Below are positions 4,510 to 19,177 of a stretch of DNA of 64,000 nucleotides, one piece after another. Position numbers and translations under genes: made by a program. The notes under the pieces are model-generated. The model made no database searches, was not told where the DNA came from, and worked only from the letters and a program-made list of their open reading frames with translations. The DNA lies in the NCBI GenBank assembly GCA_030645235.1, contig JAUSMV010000012.1:248001-312000 (forward strand), in the 5' to 3' direction. This DNA is from Parvibaculum sp. (GTDB lineage: Bacteria; Pseudomonadota; Alphaproteobacteria; Parvibaculales; Parvibaculaceae). Positions within the stretch are counted from its first letter, which is position 1. Each line of letters opens with the position of its first letter.

Positions 4510-4773
4510 ATGAGCAAACTCGATGCAGCCTCGGAACGCTTCAAGGCGTCGCTTGACCGGCTGGAAGCAGGCCTCCACCGCCAGATTCTCAGAGCGCAGT
4601 CGGCAGGCCGTCTTGAAAGCGAAATGACGGCGCTGAAAGAGGACCGCTCCAAACTGGCCGAAGAGCTGGACCAGCTCAAATCCGAAGCACGCCGGATCAA
4701 CGAGTTGAACGAACGCGCGTCCGAAACCATCGCCAATACGATTGAAGGCATCCGCGAAGTCCTCGCAGAATAG
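4510..4773 (+). CDS. DUF4164 small coiled-coil protein
   Basis: An 87-residue protein almost entirely predicted as one long alpha-helical coiled coil, rich in Glu, Lys, Arg and Leu heptads (LDRLEAGL, MTALKEDRSKLAEELDQL). It matches the alphaproteobacterial DUF4164 pattern of a short coiled-coil protein directly upstream of zapA, separated here by 23 bp. No enzyme motif or signal peptide is seen. The context suggests a cytosolic partner of the division protein ZapA, but that is inference. A 223-residue frame on the opposite strand is a shadow. Confidence 0.85.
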   Translation: MSKLDAASERFKASLDRLEAGLHRQILRAQSAGRLESEMTALKEDRSKLAEELDQLKSEARRINELNERASETIANTIEGIREVLAE

Positions 4774-4796
4774 CTCATTAGAAAGCGCATATAGAT

Positions 4797-5156
4797 ATGG
4801 GACAAGTCACCGTCCTCGTGAACGATAAGGCCTATATGGTGTCCTGCGGGGATGGCGAGGAAGCCCATCTGAAGGAGCTTGGCGCTTATGTGAACCGCCA
4901 TGTCACGGATCTGGCGCGCGAAGTGGGGCAGGTCGGGGAGACCCGTCTTTTGCTTATGGCTTCGCTTCTGGTGGCTGACGAACTTGCTGAGGCCAAGGCC
5001 AAAGTGAAGATGCTGGAAACCGACATTGAGCAACTGACGCAGACGCGTATTGCGGCGCTGGAGCGCTCACGCGAGGCCGAAGACCTGCTGGGCGATGTGC
5101 TGGACAGTGCTGCGCGGCGCATTGAAGACATTGCACGCCGCGTTGAATCGGCGTGA
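4797..5156 (+). CDS. zapA: Cell division protein ZapA
   Basis: ZapA binds FtsZ in the cytoplasm and promotes bundling of Z-ring filaments. The 119-residue protein has the small N-terminal beta-rich head (VTVLVNDKAYMVSCGDGEE), the helix with HLKELGAYVNRHV, and a long C-terminal coiled coil. It is followed by a 6S-like RNA and 5-formyltetrahydrofolate cyclo-ligase, the same order seen in many proteobacteria. The last seven codons, including the stop, are repeated twice more downstream with a 30-bp period (see the repeat entry), so the present stop may not be the ancestral one. The C-terminal residues are RRVESA. Confidence 0.93.
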   Translation: MGQVTVLVNDKAYMVSCGDGEEAHLKELGAYVNRHVTDLAREVGQVGETRLLLMASLLVADELAEAKAKVKMLETDIEQLTQTRIAALERSREAEDLLGDVLDSAARRIEDIARRVESA

Positions 5157-5216
5157 CTTTGGGCCCGCCGCGTTGAATCGGCGTAACTTTGGGTGCGCCG
5201 CGTCGAATCCGCCTGA
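5136..5216 (+). repeat. Three in-register 30-bp repeats over the zapA stop
   Basis: Copies begin at 5136, 5166 and 5196. Each starts CGCCGCGT, and in the zapA frame each reads RRVESA followed by a stop (TGA, TAA, TGA), joined by LWA or LWV spacers. The period is exactly ten codons. The first two copies are nearly identical; the third has four differences in the shared 21 bases. This is a tandem duplication of the zapA 3' end. Confidence 0.9.
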
Positions 5217-13148: not shown

Positions 13149-13898
13149 ATGAACCCGACCACTCAAACGATTGAAACCGGCGTTAACACCGCGCAAGTCG
13201 TTGCCAATCAGACTGTAAATGCTCCCGCTGTCGATTTCTCGATCATGGGCCTCTTTATGCACGCCGACACGATCGTGAAGATCGTCATGCTCGGCCTGCT
13301 CTTTGCCTCTGTCTGGTCATGGGCCATTATTTTTGACAAATGGTGGCGTTTTAACCGCGTTGAAGCGCGCGCCGATGCTTTCGAGCGCACCTTCTGGTCG
13401 GGCCGTTCGCTGGAAGACCTCTATCAGGAAGTCGGCAGCCGTCCCGGCCACCCGCTGTCAGCCCTCTTCATCGCCGCGATGCGCGAATGGCGCCGGTCGC
13501 AGGAAATCGCGACCGACAGCTTCATTGGTCTCAAGGAACGCGTCGACAAAGTGATGCAGGTCACAATCAGCCGCGAAATGCTGACGCTTGAAGCGCGCCT
13601 CTTGTTCCTTGCCACCGTTGGCTCGGTTGCGCCCTTCGTCGGTCTCTTCGGCACGGTCTGGGGCATTATGAACAGCTTCCAGGCGATTGCGGTGAGCCGC
13701 GATACAAACCTTGCGGTCGTCGCACCGGGCATTGCCGAAGCTTTGTTTGCGACCGCACTCGGTCTCGTCGCTGCCATTCCTGCGGTTGTGGCTTACAACC
13801 GTTTCAACAATCAGGTCGGCCGTTTCGGCTCGCGCATGGAAAGCTTCGCGGATGAATTCTCCGCCATTCTGTCGCGCCAACTCGACGAACGGAGCTGA
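13149..13898 (+). CDS. tolQ: Tol-Pal system proton channel subunit TolQ
   Basis: Inner-membrane subunit that with TolR uses the proton motive force to energise TolA during envelope constriction. It is 249 residues with a first membrane helix near residues 38-60 (IVKIVMLGLLFASVWSWAII), a long cytoplasmic region, and two further membrane helices containing LLFLATVGSVAPFVGLFGTVWGIMNSF and APGIAEALFATALGLVAAIPAVVAYN. The conserved Thr and Pro of the channel helices are present. It is followed after 3 bp by tolR. Confidence 0.96.
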   Translation: MNPTTQTIETGVNTAQVVANQTVNAPAVDFSIMGLFMHADTIVKIVMLGLLFASVWSWAIIFDKWWRFNRVEARADAFERTFWSGRSLEDLYQEVGSRPGHPLSALFIAAMREWRRSQEIATDSFIGLKERVDKVMQVTISREMLTLEARLLFLATVGSVAPFVGLFGTVWGIMNSFQAIAVSRDTNLAVVAPGIAEALFATALGLVAAIPAVVAYNRFNNQVGRFGSRMESFADEFSAILSRQLDERS

Positions 13899-13901
13899 TT
13901 C

Positions 13902-14354
13902 ATGGCTTTCTCCTCAGGGGGATCAGGTGGTCGTAAGCGTGGCAAGTTTGGCCGCGCACCGATGGCCGAGATCAACGTAACGCCCATGGTGGACGTGATG
14001 CTCGTGCTGCTCATCGTGTTCATGGTGGCAGCCCCATTGCTCACGGTCGGCGTGCCTGTTGATCTGCCCAAAACGCAAGCCGCCGCGCTTTCCGGCGACA
14101 ATGAGCCTTTGACCATCTCCATTGATGCCAAGGGGCAGATTTTCTTGCAGGAAACGACAGTGACTGCGGACGAGCTTGTTCCCCGCCTCACCGCCATTTC
14201 CAAAAACGGCTATGAGCAGCGCATTTTCGTGCGCGCTGACAGCCAGATTGATTACGGCACTGTCATGGATGTGATGGGCCGCATCAGCTCTGCGGGCTTC
14301 GCCAAGGTCGGGCTTGTGACCGAGACGCAGACCGACGCTCCTGCCAAGAAGTAA
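13902..14354 (+). CDS. tolR: Tol-Pal system protein TolR
   Basis: ExbD/TolR-family partner of TolQ. It is 150 residues: a short cytoplasmic tail, one membrane helix MVDVMLVLLIVFMVAAPLL near residues 26-45 whose Asp in PMVDVML is the conserved proton-carrying residue, and a periplasmic domain with LPKTQAAALSGDNEPLTISID. It lies between tolQ and tolA in a single transcript. Confidence 0.96.
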   Translation: MAFSSGGSGGRKRGKFGRAPMAEINVTPMVDVMLVLLIVFMVAAPLLTVGVPVDLPKTQAAALSGDNEPLTISIDAKGQIFLQETTVTADELVPRLTAISKNGYEQRIFVRADSQIDYGTVMDVMGRISSAGFAKVGLVTETQTDAPAKK

Positions 14355-14374
14355 GGTTCTGAACCACTTTGAGT

Positions 14375-15214
14375 ATGCGCAAGCCGCTAATTTATTCCGG
14401 TGCTATCCACGTTGCGATTGTTGTTGTGACGATTTTTGGTTTGCCTGCCCGTCAATTTGAACCGGTTGAATCGAAAGTTCTCCCCGTTGAGTTGTTGACG
14501 GTGGCTGAGATGACGAACCTAAAACGATTGGCCAAGGAAAAGCCCAAAGCGCCAAAGCCTATCGAGCAGCCGACACCGCCCAAGCCTGAGGAGCCGCCAA
14601 AGCCGGTGGTTAAGGCCGCGAGCGAACCCGCCGCCGAGCCGGAACCGACCCCGCCTGAGGAAAAGGCCGAGCCTATTCCGGACGAGAAGGCAGAAGCGCC
14701 AAAGCCCGAAGAGAAAAAACCTGAGCCGCCGAAAGAGGCGAAGAAAAAGCCTGTGCCGGTGAAAGAGGCGAAGAAGAAGAAAAAGCTGACTTATGAACAG
14801 CAGATGGCCAATCTTCTGAACAAGTTGGAGCCGACTCCGTCTGAAGAAGCGGAAGCGGAAGTTGCTGACAAAGATTTGAATGTCGAGGATCAGGATGATG
14901 TGACACAGCCGCTGACTGTGAGCCAGCTGGATGCGCTGCGTCAGAAGATTAATCCCTGTTACAATGCTGGCTTTCTGGAGGGCGCGCTGGATTCCGATAA
15001 ATTGTACGCCTACGTCTCATTTGAGCTTGCTGAAGATGGATCGCTTATCGGCACACCCACAATTGGGGAGACCGGACCGGGGGCGTCGAAGCAACTCGCT
15101 GTTATTGCGCGAAAAGCGGTTGCTGCATGCGCGCCTTACGACAATCTTCCAAAGGATAACTATGCTGCTTGGAAGTCAGTCAACGCACGGTTCACGGTTG
15201 CGGGGATGCAATGA
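14375..15214 (+). CDS. tolA: Tol-Pal system protein TolA
   Basis: Spans from inner membrane to periplasm and contacts TolB/Pal under TolQR energy. It is 279 residues from the ATG; a TTG two codons earlier is an alternative. A membrane helix lies at about 5-24 (LIYSGAIHVAIVVVTIFGL), a long Pro/Lys/Glu-rich extended region at about 50-140 (repeats of KPEEPPKP and PEEKKPEPP), and a globular C-terminal domain at about 180-279 with QKINPCYNAGF and APYDNLPKDNY. The C-terminal domain is closely repeated in the next gene. The stop overlaps the next start by 4 bp. Confidence 0.92.
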   Translation: MRKPLIYSGAIHVAIVVVTIFGLPARQFEPVESKVLPVELLTVAEMTNLKRLAKEKPKAPKPIEQPTPPKPEEPPKPVVKAASEPAAEPEPTPPEEKAEPIPDEKAEAPKPEEKKPEPPKEAKKKPVPVKEAKKKKKLTYEQQMANLLNKLEPTPSEEAEAEVADKDLNVEDQDDVTQPLTVSQLDALRQKINPCYNAGFLEGALDSDKLYAYVSFELAEDGSLIGTPTIGETGPGASKQLAVIARKAVAACAPYDNLPKDNYAAWKSVNARFTVAGMQ

Positions 15215-15747
15215 TGGCGAGCTGGCGACTTTCAAAGATGTGTCGTCAGTCTGCGGTTCTTTTGGCGATGCTCTGTGTTGCGATGCTCGGGAGCTATTCG
15301 GTTTCGGCTTCGGACATATCGTCCAAAGACAAATTCAATTACGACGCTCTTAATGAGCTGTTGGAGAAGACGCCCCCGTCTCCGGCCGCTGTGGGGCGCG
15401 GGAATCGCGACGACCACGACAACTATTCAGGGTCCACACCACCGATTTCTCAAAGTGAGATCGACGCCTTCCGAGCCAAACTCAATCAATGTTACGAGGT
15501 GAGTTTCTTGGCCGCGAGTTCTGACGCAGGCAGAATGTACGCTGAACTGAGCGTCGAGCTGGCAAAGGACGGTGCCGTTATCGGAATACCAAACATCAAC
15601 GCCGTCGGTCCGGGGGCGTCCAGTCAACTTGCCGTGCTCGCGCGCAAAGCAATTTTGGAATGCGCGCCCTATGACATGCTGCCGAAAGATAAATATGGAA
15701 GCTGGAGGGACGTGACCTTGCGTTTCTCAGTGGCAGGAATGCAATAG
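15211..15747 (+). CDS. Exported paralogue of the TolA C-terminal domain
   Basis: 178 residues starting at the ATG that overlaps the tolA stop (ATGA). A hydrophobic segment QSAVLLAMLCVAMLGSYSVSA at about 13-33 looks like a cleavable signal peptide. After a linker the last 100 residues align throughout with the TolA C-terminal domain: RAKLNQCYEVSFL matches RQKINPCYNAGFL, GPGASSQLAVLARKAILECAPYD matches GPGASKQLAVIARKAVAACAPYD, and both end FxVAGMQ. The membrane anchor and the Pro/Lys/Glu-rich arm are absent. It is therefore a soluble or loosely attached periplasmic copy of the Pal/TolB-facing domain, most likely by local duplication. Function is unknown; it might compete with or support TolA. 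Confidence 0.85.
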   Translation: MMASWRLSKMCRQSAVLLAMLCVAMLGSYSVSASDISSKDKFNYDALNELLEKTPPSPAAVGRGNRDDHDNYSGSTPPISQSEIDAFRAKLNQCYEVSFLAASSDAGRMYAELSVELAKDGAVIGIPNINAVGPGASSQLAVLARKAILECAPYDMLPKDKYGSWRDVTLRFSVAGMQ

Positions 15748-15873
15748 CCCAACCACGAAAACGCCTTAATCGGCTCCGAAAACAGAGCCAATCGTATAAT
15801 TGACAAAATGTGGTCCCATCCTGCCTCCTAGTGGCAAAAGATGTGACAAGCCTTGAAGGCAGGAGCAAAGACG

Positions 15874-17211
15874 ATGTTTGAAATGTTCGGTTCCATGAGG
15901 TCCCGCGTTATAGGGGCGGCGACCGTTCTGGCGTTTGTTGCCGGTTTCGGGATACCCGCTCAGGCGGCGCTCCAGATCGACATCAATTCGGCCAAGACCG
16001 AGCCTATGCCCATTGCCGTCACTGACTTTGTCGGCGGGGCCGGGCAGGAGGCCTCGGCAGGCATGGACATTGCCACCGTCGTCACCAACGACCTTGAGCG
16101 CTCCGGTCTCTTTGCGCCGCTGCCCAAAGGCTCGTTCATCGAAAAAATCAATGACATGAATGTGCCGCCGCGTTTCGGCGACTGGCGCATCATCAAGGCG
16201 CAGTCGCTTGTCACCGGTCAGGCCAAGATGGAAGCCGATGGTCGCCTGCGCGTCGAGTTCCGGCTCTGGGACGTTTACGGTGAGCAGCAGCTCACGGGTC
16301 TCCAGTTTTTCACGACGCCTGACAATTGGCGCCGCGTTGCCCATCTCATCTCGGACGCGATTTATGAGCGTCTGACGGGCGAAAAAGGCTATTTCGACAC
16401 GCGCATTGTCTATACGTCGGAAACAGGCCCGAAGAACCGCCGCGTCAAGCGCCTGACCATTATGGATCAGGACGGCTACAATCCGCGCATGCTGACCAAT
16501 GGTGCAGAACTCGTGCTGACACCGCGTTTCAGCCCGAATTCGCAGGAAATCACCTATCTCTCCTATCACCGCAACCAGCCGCGCGTGTATCTGCTCGACA
16601 TCGAAACGGGCCGTCAGGAAGTCGTTGGTGAGTTTCCGGGCATGACATTCGCGCCCCGCTTCTCGCCTGATGGTCAGAAGATCATCATGAGCCTGCAGCG
16701 CGGCGGCAATTCCAATATCTACACGATGGATTTGCGCTCGCGCAAAGTGACCCGTCTGACGAACACGGCTGCCATTGATACTGCGCCGTCCTATTCGCCG
16801 GACGGCACGCAGATCACGTTTGAGTCTGATCGTGGCGGCTCGCAGCAGATCTATGTAATGAATGCCGATGGTTCCAACCAGCACCGCATCAGCTTCGGCA
16901 AAGGCCGCTACGCGACGCCCGTCTGGTCGCCGCGCGGCGACTTCATCGCCTTCACCAAGATGGGCAACGGGCAGTTCGTCATCGGCGTCATGAAGCCGGA
17001 CGGCACGGGCGACCGTGTTCTGACCGAAGGTTACCATAATGAGGGCCCGACATGGGCACCCAATGGTCGCGTGCTGATGTTCTTCCGCGAACAACGCGGC
17101 GCAACCGGCGGTCCGGGCCTGTGGTCGGTTGATTTGACGGGGCATAATGAGCGTCCCGTGCCTGCGCCGACATTTGCATCCGATCCGGCCTGGTCTCCGC
17201 GTATTCAGTGA
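15874..17211 (+). CDS. tolB: Tol-Pal system periplasmic beta-propeller TolB
   Basis: Periplasmic protein linking TolA and Pal. It is 445 residues from the ATG preceded by AGGAG; a TTG 21 bp upstream was not preferred. The signal peptide [20 protein letters not shown] is followed by the N-terminal alpha/beta domain and a six-bladed propeller with WD40-like repeats ([64 protein letters not shown]). It ends with DPAWSPRIQ. It follows the TolA-like paralogue by 126 bp. Confidence 0.96.
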
Positions 17212-17601
17212 GTTCTGACCGAGCCGAGAGTGAGTCGCATCTGGTTAATATCGATTCACTTTAAAAAATGACGTTTTGAGCTGGTTCAGTAGGTTCCGTA
17301 ATCAGGTCATCCTGTCCCACAACCATGAATCTGTGGCAGGATGACCGATATGCGGTGCATAAATGTCACTGAGGTTATGCCGAAAAGTCGCAGGCTTCCT
17401 AATGTTCTTGCCAGTGCGAGGACGTGTAGGTACTATTTTGTTGCGGTAAGGCAACCCAGCTCCTTCTGGCCGGATGTGCAAAGCGATCATTTTCCAATTT
17501 GTCGGAGGCAGTGCCTCCACCTTTGGGGTGTTTGCCGCCTAAAAGCAAACAGGACAACTGAGCCGCCTTTGGCCGTTGAGATTAAAATGGAGAGCACCCG
17601 A
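17212..17601. other. Gap between tolB and pal
   Basis: 390 bp without a convincing gene; the open frame running into pal from 17341 does not look like protein. It contains the inverted repeat at 17305-17346 and presumably the pal promoter. A good ribosome-binding site GGAGAG lies just before the pal start. Confidence 0.6.
17305..17346. repeat. Inverted repeat between tolB and pal
   Basis: GGTCATCCTG followed by TCCCACA pairs with TGTGG and CAGGATGACC across a 10-base loop, giving about 15 bp of stem with a two-base bulge. No T-run follows, so it is not a classic terminator. It may be an RNA stability or attenuation element or an operator. Confidence 0.6.
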
Positions 17602-18093
17602 ATGAAGTCCCCGTATGCAGGCCTGCGGTTCGCCGCCGTGGCCGCTGCCTTTTTGATGATTGCTGCTTGCAGCTCCACAGACGCCGCCACCGATAGCAGC
17701 GGTTCGTCTTCAGCCCTCGTCCCCGGTTCGCAGGCTGAACTGGTTGCCAATGTTGGTGATCGCGTGTTTTTCGACACCGATCAGTCAACGCTGAATGACG
17801 AAGGCAAAGCCACTCTGCAGCGTCAGGCTGCCTGGCTCGCCAAATATCCTGCCAACACATTCACGCTCGAAGGCCATGCCGACGAACGTGGCACACGTGA
17901 ATACAACCTCGCACTCGGTGGCCGTCGTGCCGCCGCCACGAAGGATTTCCTCGTGAGCCTCGGCGTTGACGCCGGTCGTATCTCCACCGTTTCATACGGC
18001 AAAGAACGCCCCGTCTGCCTTGAGTCGACAGAAGAATGCTGGAGCCAGAACCGTCGCGCTGTGTCGGTTGTTGTCAACGGCGCCGGCAGCTAA
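17602..18093 (+). CDS. pal: Peptidoglycan-associated lipoprotein Pal
   Basis: Outer-membrane lipoprotein that binds peptidoglycan through an OmpA-like domain and is the outer partner of TolB/TolA. It is 163 residues. The signal peptide ends in the lipobox LMIAAC (Cys at about 22), then comes a Ser-rich linker and the OmpA domain with VFFDTDQSTLNDEG, LEGHADERGTREYNLALGGRRA and SYGKERPVC. The ATG at 17602 was chosen because GGAGAG lies 8 bases upstream; an ATG five codons earlier is possible. Confidence 0.96.
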   Translation: MKSPYAGLRFAAVAAAFLMIAACSSTDAATDSSGSSSALVPGSQAELVANVGDRVFFDTDQSTLNDEGKATLQRQAAWLAKYPANTFTLEGHADERGTREYNLALGGRRAAATKDFLVSLGVDAGRISTVSYGKERPVCLESTEECWSQNRRAVSVVVNGAGS

Positions 18094-18325: not shown

Positions 18326-19177
18326 GTGAATATTTCAAAGCATCTTGTTGCGGGCAGCTTCGCAGCACTCATCGCGGGCGCAGTCCTGTTGCCGCTCAGC
18401 GCATCGGCCGACGATGCCGATTTGCGCGCCGTCAATAACCGCCTCGACCGTCTGGAGCGCTCTGTCAATGATATGCGCCAGAATGAAGGCGGTTCGTCCT
18501 CAAACGGAGCATCTTCCTCCGTTTCGCTCAACAGCGATGCCGGTGTGCGTCTTGGTCAGATGGAAGAACAAATGCGCCTCCTGAACGGCCGCATTGAAGA
18601 GCTGACCCATCAGCTTGATGTCGTCAACAAAGATCTCTCAACTTATAAAGAAGCCACCGATCTGCGCTTTCAGGATTTGAACACAACGGGTCCTGCTGCT
18701 GGTGCTGCTGCTGCGCCCACGGCCGGCAAAGCCACTGTCGCTGCCGGTGCCCCCGCTGCGGCCAGCGCCGCGCCGACTGTGCAGCTTCCTGCCGGTACGG
18801 CGCAGGTTCAGTATGATTTCGGCATCGGTCTGCTCAAGCAGGGCCAGTTCCCGCAGGCGCGCGATGCGTTCAAGCAGTTTCTGGTTCAGCACCCCAAAGA
18901 TCCGCTCGCAGGCAATGCGCAGTATTGGCTTGGCGAAACCTATTACGCTCAGGGTCAGTATAAGGACGCAGCCGACAGTTTCCTCAAGGGCTACACCACC
19001 TATTCCAAGAGCACCAAGGCGCCCGACAGTTTGCTCAAGCTCGGTATGACGCTGACGCAACTCAAGCAAAAAGATGCGGCTTGTGCCACATTTGGTCAGC
19101 TCAAAGAGCAATTCCCCAATGCGTCTCCCGCCATTGTTGCGCGCAACAAGCAGGAACGTCAGAAAGCCGGTTGCTGA
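18326..19177 (+). CDS. cpoB: YbgF/CpoB, Tol-Pal associated TPR protein
   Basis: Periplasmic coordinator of peptidoglycan synthesis and outer-membrane constriction. It is 283 residues from a GTG. A signal peptide (AGSFAALIAGAVLLPLSASA) is followed by a coiled-coil trimerisation segment (AVNNRLDRLERSVNDMRQNE, MEEQMRLLNGRIEELTHQL), an Ala/Pro-rich linker, and C-terminal TPR repeats starting QYDFGIGLLKQGQFPQARDAF. The last TPR contains the family-typical KAPDSLLKLGMTL. It is the usual last gene of tol-pal and is separated from pal by a terminator, so it has its own promoter. Confidence 0.94.
   Translation: MNISKHLVAGSFAALIAGAVLLPLSASADDADLRAVNNRLDRLERSVNDMRQNEGGSSSNGASSSVSLNSDAGVRLGQMEEQMRLLNGRIEELTHQLDVVNKDLSTYKEATDLRFQDLNTTGPAAGAAAAPTAGKATVAAGAPAAASAAPTVQLPAGTAQVQYDFGIGLLKQGQFPQARDAFKQFLVQHPKDPLAGNAQYWLGETYYAQGQYKDAADSFLKGYTTYSKSTKAPDSLLKLGMTLTQLKQKDAACATFGQLKEQFPNASPAIVARNKQERQKAGC

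Follow-up and report, generated by a model that had tools for sequence, protein, structure and literature searches.

The Tol-Pal system is one of the principal machines by which a dividing cell keeps its outer membrane attached, and many bacteriocins and filamentous phages enter through it. Its TolA protein (TIGR02794, PF06519) has an anchor coupled to TolQR, an extended arm (domain II) and a C-terminal domain III (TolA-III). TolB binds TolA-III by β-strand augmentation with a Kd of ~40-200 μM, and CpoB binds TolA domain II (PMC7391070). Domain III is also bound by the filamentous phage protein g3p and by colicins A and N (PMC7391070, PMC4339652). A free periplasmic TolA-III is an old laboratory tool: in E. 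coli, an artificial protein made of a signal peptide and TolAIII causes leakage of periplasmic proteins (PMC6195910, citing Levengood-Freyermuth 1993 and Wan and Baneyx 1998). The accessible part of a survey of tol-pal loci (PMC12204202) describes no natural free TolA-III. Our search of the open-access literature found neither a natural free TolA-III or second tolA in tol-pal nor a built-in modulator of the Tol-Pal force step. The TolA-III domain and the tol-pal operon are already known; new, as far as we searched, is that several families independently evolved a natural gene in tol-pal for an exported TolA-III that has no motor. The earlier note on this DNA knew of no described system of this form, which stands within the open-access literature searched and has to be narrowed by the artificial protein and by free short TolA-III proteins elsewhere (see below).

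A second TolA-III gene in the tol-pal operon

We analyzed a stretch of 64,000 nucleotides from a Parvibaculum genome, here called the window. Its tol-pal operon is complete, in the order ybgC, tolQ, tolR, tolA, tolA', tolB, pal, cpoB, where tolA' denotes the second TolA-III gene. On the forward strand we located tolQ (13149-13898, from sequence inspection and gene order), tolR (13902-14354, ExbD/TolR, PF02472), tolA (14369-15214, 281 aa, the source of the duplication according to BLASTP and the tree), tolB (15874-17211, whose mature protein retains an N-terminal segment of 21 residues), pal (17341-18093, OmpA-like by domain match, with a true start probably within the ORF) and cpoB/ybgF (18326-19177, from sequence inspection). 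A promoter-like element, TTGACA-N3-TGTGGTCCCAT, precedes tolB at 15800-15819 on the same strand and is also present in the nearest relatives, G003 and G004 (L002 2011-2030; L004 1949-1968). The tolA' insert sits exactly between the tolA stop and this element and, lying upstream of it, belongs to the tolQRA unit.

The tolA' gene (15211-15747, forward strand) encodes an apparently exported paralogue of TolA domain III of 178 aa, identified from its ORF, BLASTP, a structural model and structure matches. Its start codon (ATG, 15211-15213) overlaps the tolA stop (TGA, 15212-15214) in an ATGA at 15211-15214, with GGGGA 4 nt 5' of the start, and translational coupling to tolA is possible. Residues 1-33 (15211-15309) form, by inspection, a putative type I signal peptide with a K/R-containing n-region, an AVLLAMLCVAMLG core and a VSA/SD end (...SYSVSA/SD); it has no lipobox, as ...LLAMLC has Leu at -1. 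The DNA of this signal peptide has no second copy elsewhere in the genome, and its similarity to the TolA N-terminus is not significant. A linker of ~43 residues leads to a complete domain III (residues 76-178, 15436-15744), delimited by BLASTP, alignment A1, the model, and profile and structure matches. Within the linker, FNYDALNELLEKTPPSP (15334-15384) aligns with YEQQMANLLNKLEPTP, which directly precedes domain III in TolA; hence the copied part comprises domain III and its upstream boundary, ~140 residues, more than the roughly 100 that the earlier note had recognized. That note had also described the membrane anchor and the arm as missing, and both are: the S-x3-H pattern of TolQR coupling (YSGAIH in the TolA of the window) is absent from residues 1-33 by inspection, and nothing like the extended domain II arm, be it proline/lysine-rich or helical, precedes domain III apart from the ~43-residue linker.

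The product of tolA' shares with the TolA of the window 48% identity over 133 aa (BLASTP, E 9e-44) and 54.9% identity over the 102 columns of domain III alone. Common to both are GPGAS, APYD, the terminal VAGMQ and the cysteine pair, as the earlier note had read from the sequence; the cysteines are Cys94 (15490-15492) and Cys151 (15661-15663), corresponding to columns C19 and C76, which are invariant in A1. In alignment A2, each of the 25 sequences has the invariant F97. An AlphaFold2 model from a 4-row alignment reached a mean pLDDT of 58 (~65-70 in the domain) and was used for the fold searches, leaving out the poor single-sequence model of the full 178 aa (pLDDT 40). This modest-confidence model has the order alpha-beta-beta-alpha-alpha-beta, as in TolA-III, and its best matches among solved structures are all TolA-III (1LR0 and 2X9A, both Z 9.0; 3QDR, Z 8.8; 6S3W, solved with a TolB peptide, Z 8.2). 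A search of PDB sequences with the family profile placed 6S3W and 1LR0, TolA-III of P. aeruginosa, as the top two. The C-terminal domain of TonB, another energy transducer, has a related fold (H. pylori TonB-CTD 5LW8, Z 7.1), but the tolA' product has no anchor, and its sequence, fold score and operon place it nearer to TolA-III. Scores against curated profiles were below cut-off (TIGR02794, 21.3 bits vs 59.45; PF06519, 12.4 vs 25); since the TolA of the window itself falls under the TIGR02794 cut-off (34.4) and has no PF06519 match, these scores do not discriminate.

The protein thus compares with two known ones. With TolA, from which the tree shows it to descend, it shares the fold, cysteine pair and terminal strand of domain III and the operon, while it has its own signal peptide and no means to transmit force. 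With the artificial TolAIII of E. coli it shares the combination of a signal peptide and domain III alone; that protein (PMC6195910) was made by hand and overexpressed for leakage, whereas tolA' is natural and lies in tol-pal beside an intact tolA.

An artefact of assembly or annotation is extremely improbable. The genome is a draft of 86 contigs with 3.3% contamination, but the 863-kb contig in which tolA' is embedded has tolA, tolB and the conserved element before tolB in their proper order, its 55% identity to tolA in domain III argues against a mis-joined repeat, and single-contig genomes such as G196 show the same arrangement.

Occurrence and origin

We searched for orthologues of tolA' in the genus and family and found none in the other searchable genomes, 26 from the genus and 13 more from the family; wherever the locus was readable, tolA was directly followed by tolB. 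In a tree of domain III, tolA' is sister to the TolA of the window genome plus that of G003 (support for the trio 100/99), which suggests that the duplication predates the split between these two genomes and that the copy was then lost in G003. If the duplication were instead confined to this lineage, with faster change, tolA' and its own TolA should form one clade, and the test falls short of clearly rejecting that grouping (p-AU 0.057). The branch of tolA' is 0.46 long, those of the TolAs 0.20-0.28. A peptide-pattern scan of genome contigs returned just two distant TolAs, and one of viral contigs returned nothing. Matches on plasmids were discarded as ordinary Sinorhizobium/Shinella TolA, the one locus inspected being a normal tol-pal, and the sole phage match (MT837095.1, L050, labelled Bacteriophage sp.) looks like a bacterial contig with tolQ, tolR and tolA. 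Two members of the genus, G026 (L038) and G001 (L037), each have a gene for a short exported TolA-III protein at a locus other than that of tolA, next to a YifB/ComM-like gene. These two proteins cluster together (97/95), apart from the copy in the window, and the G001 version, like tolA', reproduces the FDPxxIxxLL segment.

The absence from genus and family first suggested a one-off duplicate, an idea overturned by a class-wide survey. Profile searches covered 241 and then 387 alphaproteobacterial genomes, and most loci with two or more matches were inspected. A short exported TolA-III gene directly after tolA was found in 10 of the 387 genomes, from 7 families including that of the window, so that the synteny tolA-tolA'-tolB, absent from the rest of the genus and family, is present in other families of the class. 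Five of the seven species of genus g74 (family f69) have a tandem copy, three with Sec-type and two with lipoprotein signals. Tandem copies are of the lipoprotein type in family f33 (G239, G170) and have Sec-type signals in families f127 (G235) and f157 (G418); that of family f148 (G316) is of the lipoprotein type, with no tolB in the downstream stretch inspected. In all copies the type of signal was judged by eye, and lipobox-like sequences were seen in G291, G109, G239, G170 and G316. In family f56 (G185; L115, reverse strand), the gene between tolA and tolB encodes an exported EF-hand-like protein fused to a TolA-III copy whose last 420 bases are identical to tolA at 412 positions, a very recent duplication of the tolA 3' end. 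G170 has two successive lipoprotein-type TolA-III genes between tolA and tolB (L151, reverse strand, ~184267-184910 of G170:C34); the third TolA-III copy of this genome is too diverged for placement in the tree. The junctions with tolA are mostly ATGA or TAATG overlaps, the copies of g74 and G239 also overlap tolB, and nearly all copies still lie between tolA and tolB.

The tandem copies of f127, f33, f157/f148, f69 and the window each group with the TolA of their own lineage, and in f69, f148 and f157 the cysteine pair is missing from TolA and copy alike. Forcing six tandem copies (from f69, f33, f127 and f157) into one clade was rejected with a p-AU of ~1e-39. An exported TolA-III beside tolA arose independently in several lineages. 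Dispersed short genes for exported or lipoprotein TolA-III-like proteins were also seen in Alphaproteobacteria, in G402 (L153; two genes), G347 (L154) and G363 (L152) and at L116-L120.

Purifying selection on the copies

For five tolA' orthologues of g74, dN/dS (NG86) was 0.24-0.33, compared with 0.01-0.14 for TolA-III of the same species; the copies are under purifying selection and change faster than TolA-III. Comparison of tolA' with the tolA of the window over 103 codons gives 31, 27 and 68 differences at first, second and third positions, with a saturated pS of 0.79 and a pN of 0.29, values that sum the constraint over both copies. Neutral drift at that age would hardly leave 55% identity, the frame, the cysteines and the signal, which points to codon constraint on tolA'. 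It is quite improbable that tolA' is a recent or decaying duplicate without function. Its absence from the 26 genus and 13 family genomes would fit such a duplicate, and its longer branch shows relaxed constraint, but pN is low where pS is saturated, the codon positions differ as given, and over so long a time neither the reading frame nor the signal peptide, cysteines and motifs have been lost. Independent examples under purifying selection, such as those of g74, likewise make decay unlikely. The earlier note had named two signs of decay, absence from close relatives and loss of codon constraint; the first was found, while constraint is evident. To judge from these sequences, the architecture is convergently evolved and selectively maintained, and not decaying.

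Possible functions of the exported domain

The simplest reading is that the protein modulates Tol-Pal by acting on TolB; capture of TolA-binding agents and binding of a new partner are its main rivals. We give a probability of roughly 0.4 to the reading that the tolA' product is a non-energised domain that competes for the partners of TolA, above all the N-terminus of TolB, and damps or tunes Tol-Pal. We infer that a partial copy of tolA, cut down to domain III and given a signal peptide, would be made together with TolA through the ATGA coupling and delivered to the periplasm. Lacking both the arm and the anchor coupled to TolQR, the domain could not be pulled. There it would occupy the sites of energised TolA-III, chiefly the N-terminal TolA box of TolB, by β-strand augmentation on the last strand of its domain, and the removal of TolB from Pal by TolA would be slowed or adjusted as a result. 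Titration of TolB and of Pal had both been proposed in the earlier note. The first is plausible; the second is not, as in vitro TolA-III shows no binding to Pal (PMC7391070).

The Kd of TolB for TolA-III is one that a co-expressed free domain could challenge. The leakage caused by artificial periplasmic TolA-III in E. coli makes competition the most likely role of tolA', as a natural anchorless exported domain could bind the same partners without pulling. Competition for TolB is consistent with the retention of domain III, including its cysteine pair and terminal strand, with the fold match to the TolB-peptide-bound 6S3W, with the separate origin of the same architecture in other families and constrained copies in five species, and with the place between tolA and tolB. 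This place alone is no proof of a Tol function, since tandem duplicates are born beside their parent, and the absence of tolA' from the rest of the sampled genus and family means that it is dispensable there. Moreover, the lipoprotein versions put the domain at the membrane and need not be soluble titrants, and the faster change of the orthologues equally fits an altered partner or an arms race.

The free domain might instead be a decoy in the periplasm: where the adhesion protein of a filamentous phage, or a bacteriocin, has a part that seeks TolA, the decoy would capture that part and spare energised TolA. We consider this unlikely. That g3p and colicins A and N target TolA-III would suit a decoy, as would the faster evolution, the patchy distribution across lineages and three identical exported TolA-III genes in an apparent integron cassette array of a gammaproteobacterial genome (described below). 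However, our analysis identified no phage or bacteriocin that targets an alphaproteobacterial TolA, the examined ORF list of the window has no phage or defence gene adjoining tolA', and a Tol partner would account just as well for where the gene lies and for its overlap with tolA.

Alternatively, the tolA' product may have come to bind another envelope component (CpoB, a PBP, peptidoglycan or an outer-membrane protein) and no longer compete for TolB, the lipoprotein versions being membrane-anchored adaptors; we regard this as rather unlikely. The retained segment before domain III could serve such a role, given that CpoB binds domain II, and the lipoprotein signals in five genomes and the EF-hand-like fusion of G185 would agree with it. 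But the fold and the TolB-binding terminal strand are retained in the aligned copies, and convergent copies outside the genus of the window show no evident juxta-domain segment.

Competition for TolB, our preferred reading, might be taken further. Tentatively, these genes could be a natural, repeatedly evolved brake acting in trans, with the balance between pulled and unpulled domain III setting the speed of Pal mobilisation. The tol operon would then supply, translated with TolA, a motor-less TolB-binding domain with a signal peptide, and the lipoprotein versions would tether TolB to the membrane. Copies of the tolA' type would provide naturally occurring dominant-negative or decoy variants with which to probe the tuning of Pal mobilisation, and they may bear on the production of outer-membrane vesicles in Alphaproteobacteria.

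Short TolA-III proteins in Gammaproteobacteria

Short PF06519 proteins also occur in three gammaproteobacterial genomes. G509 has three identical exported TolA-III genes (L157 ~4706-5215 and 16535-16984; L158 12801-13250), and in G539 (L160) and G533 (L159) short lipoprotein-type proteins with a PF06519 match are encoded away from tolA. Like the tolA' product, these are short exported or lipoprotein TolA-III domains; unlike it, they are not encoded beside tolA and are not of alphaproteobacterial descent, and one is triplicated in a cassette-like array. Over 19 kb of the G509 stretch, GCGTTA occurs 37 times on one strand and 4 times on the other, and the stretch looks like a Vibrio-type integron cassette array. 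The TolA-III protein gene of G539 adjoins an sbcC-like gene.
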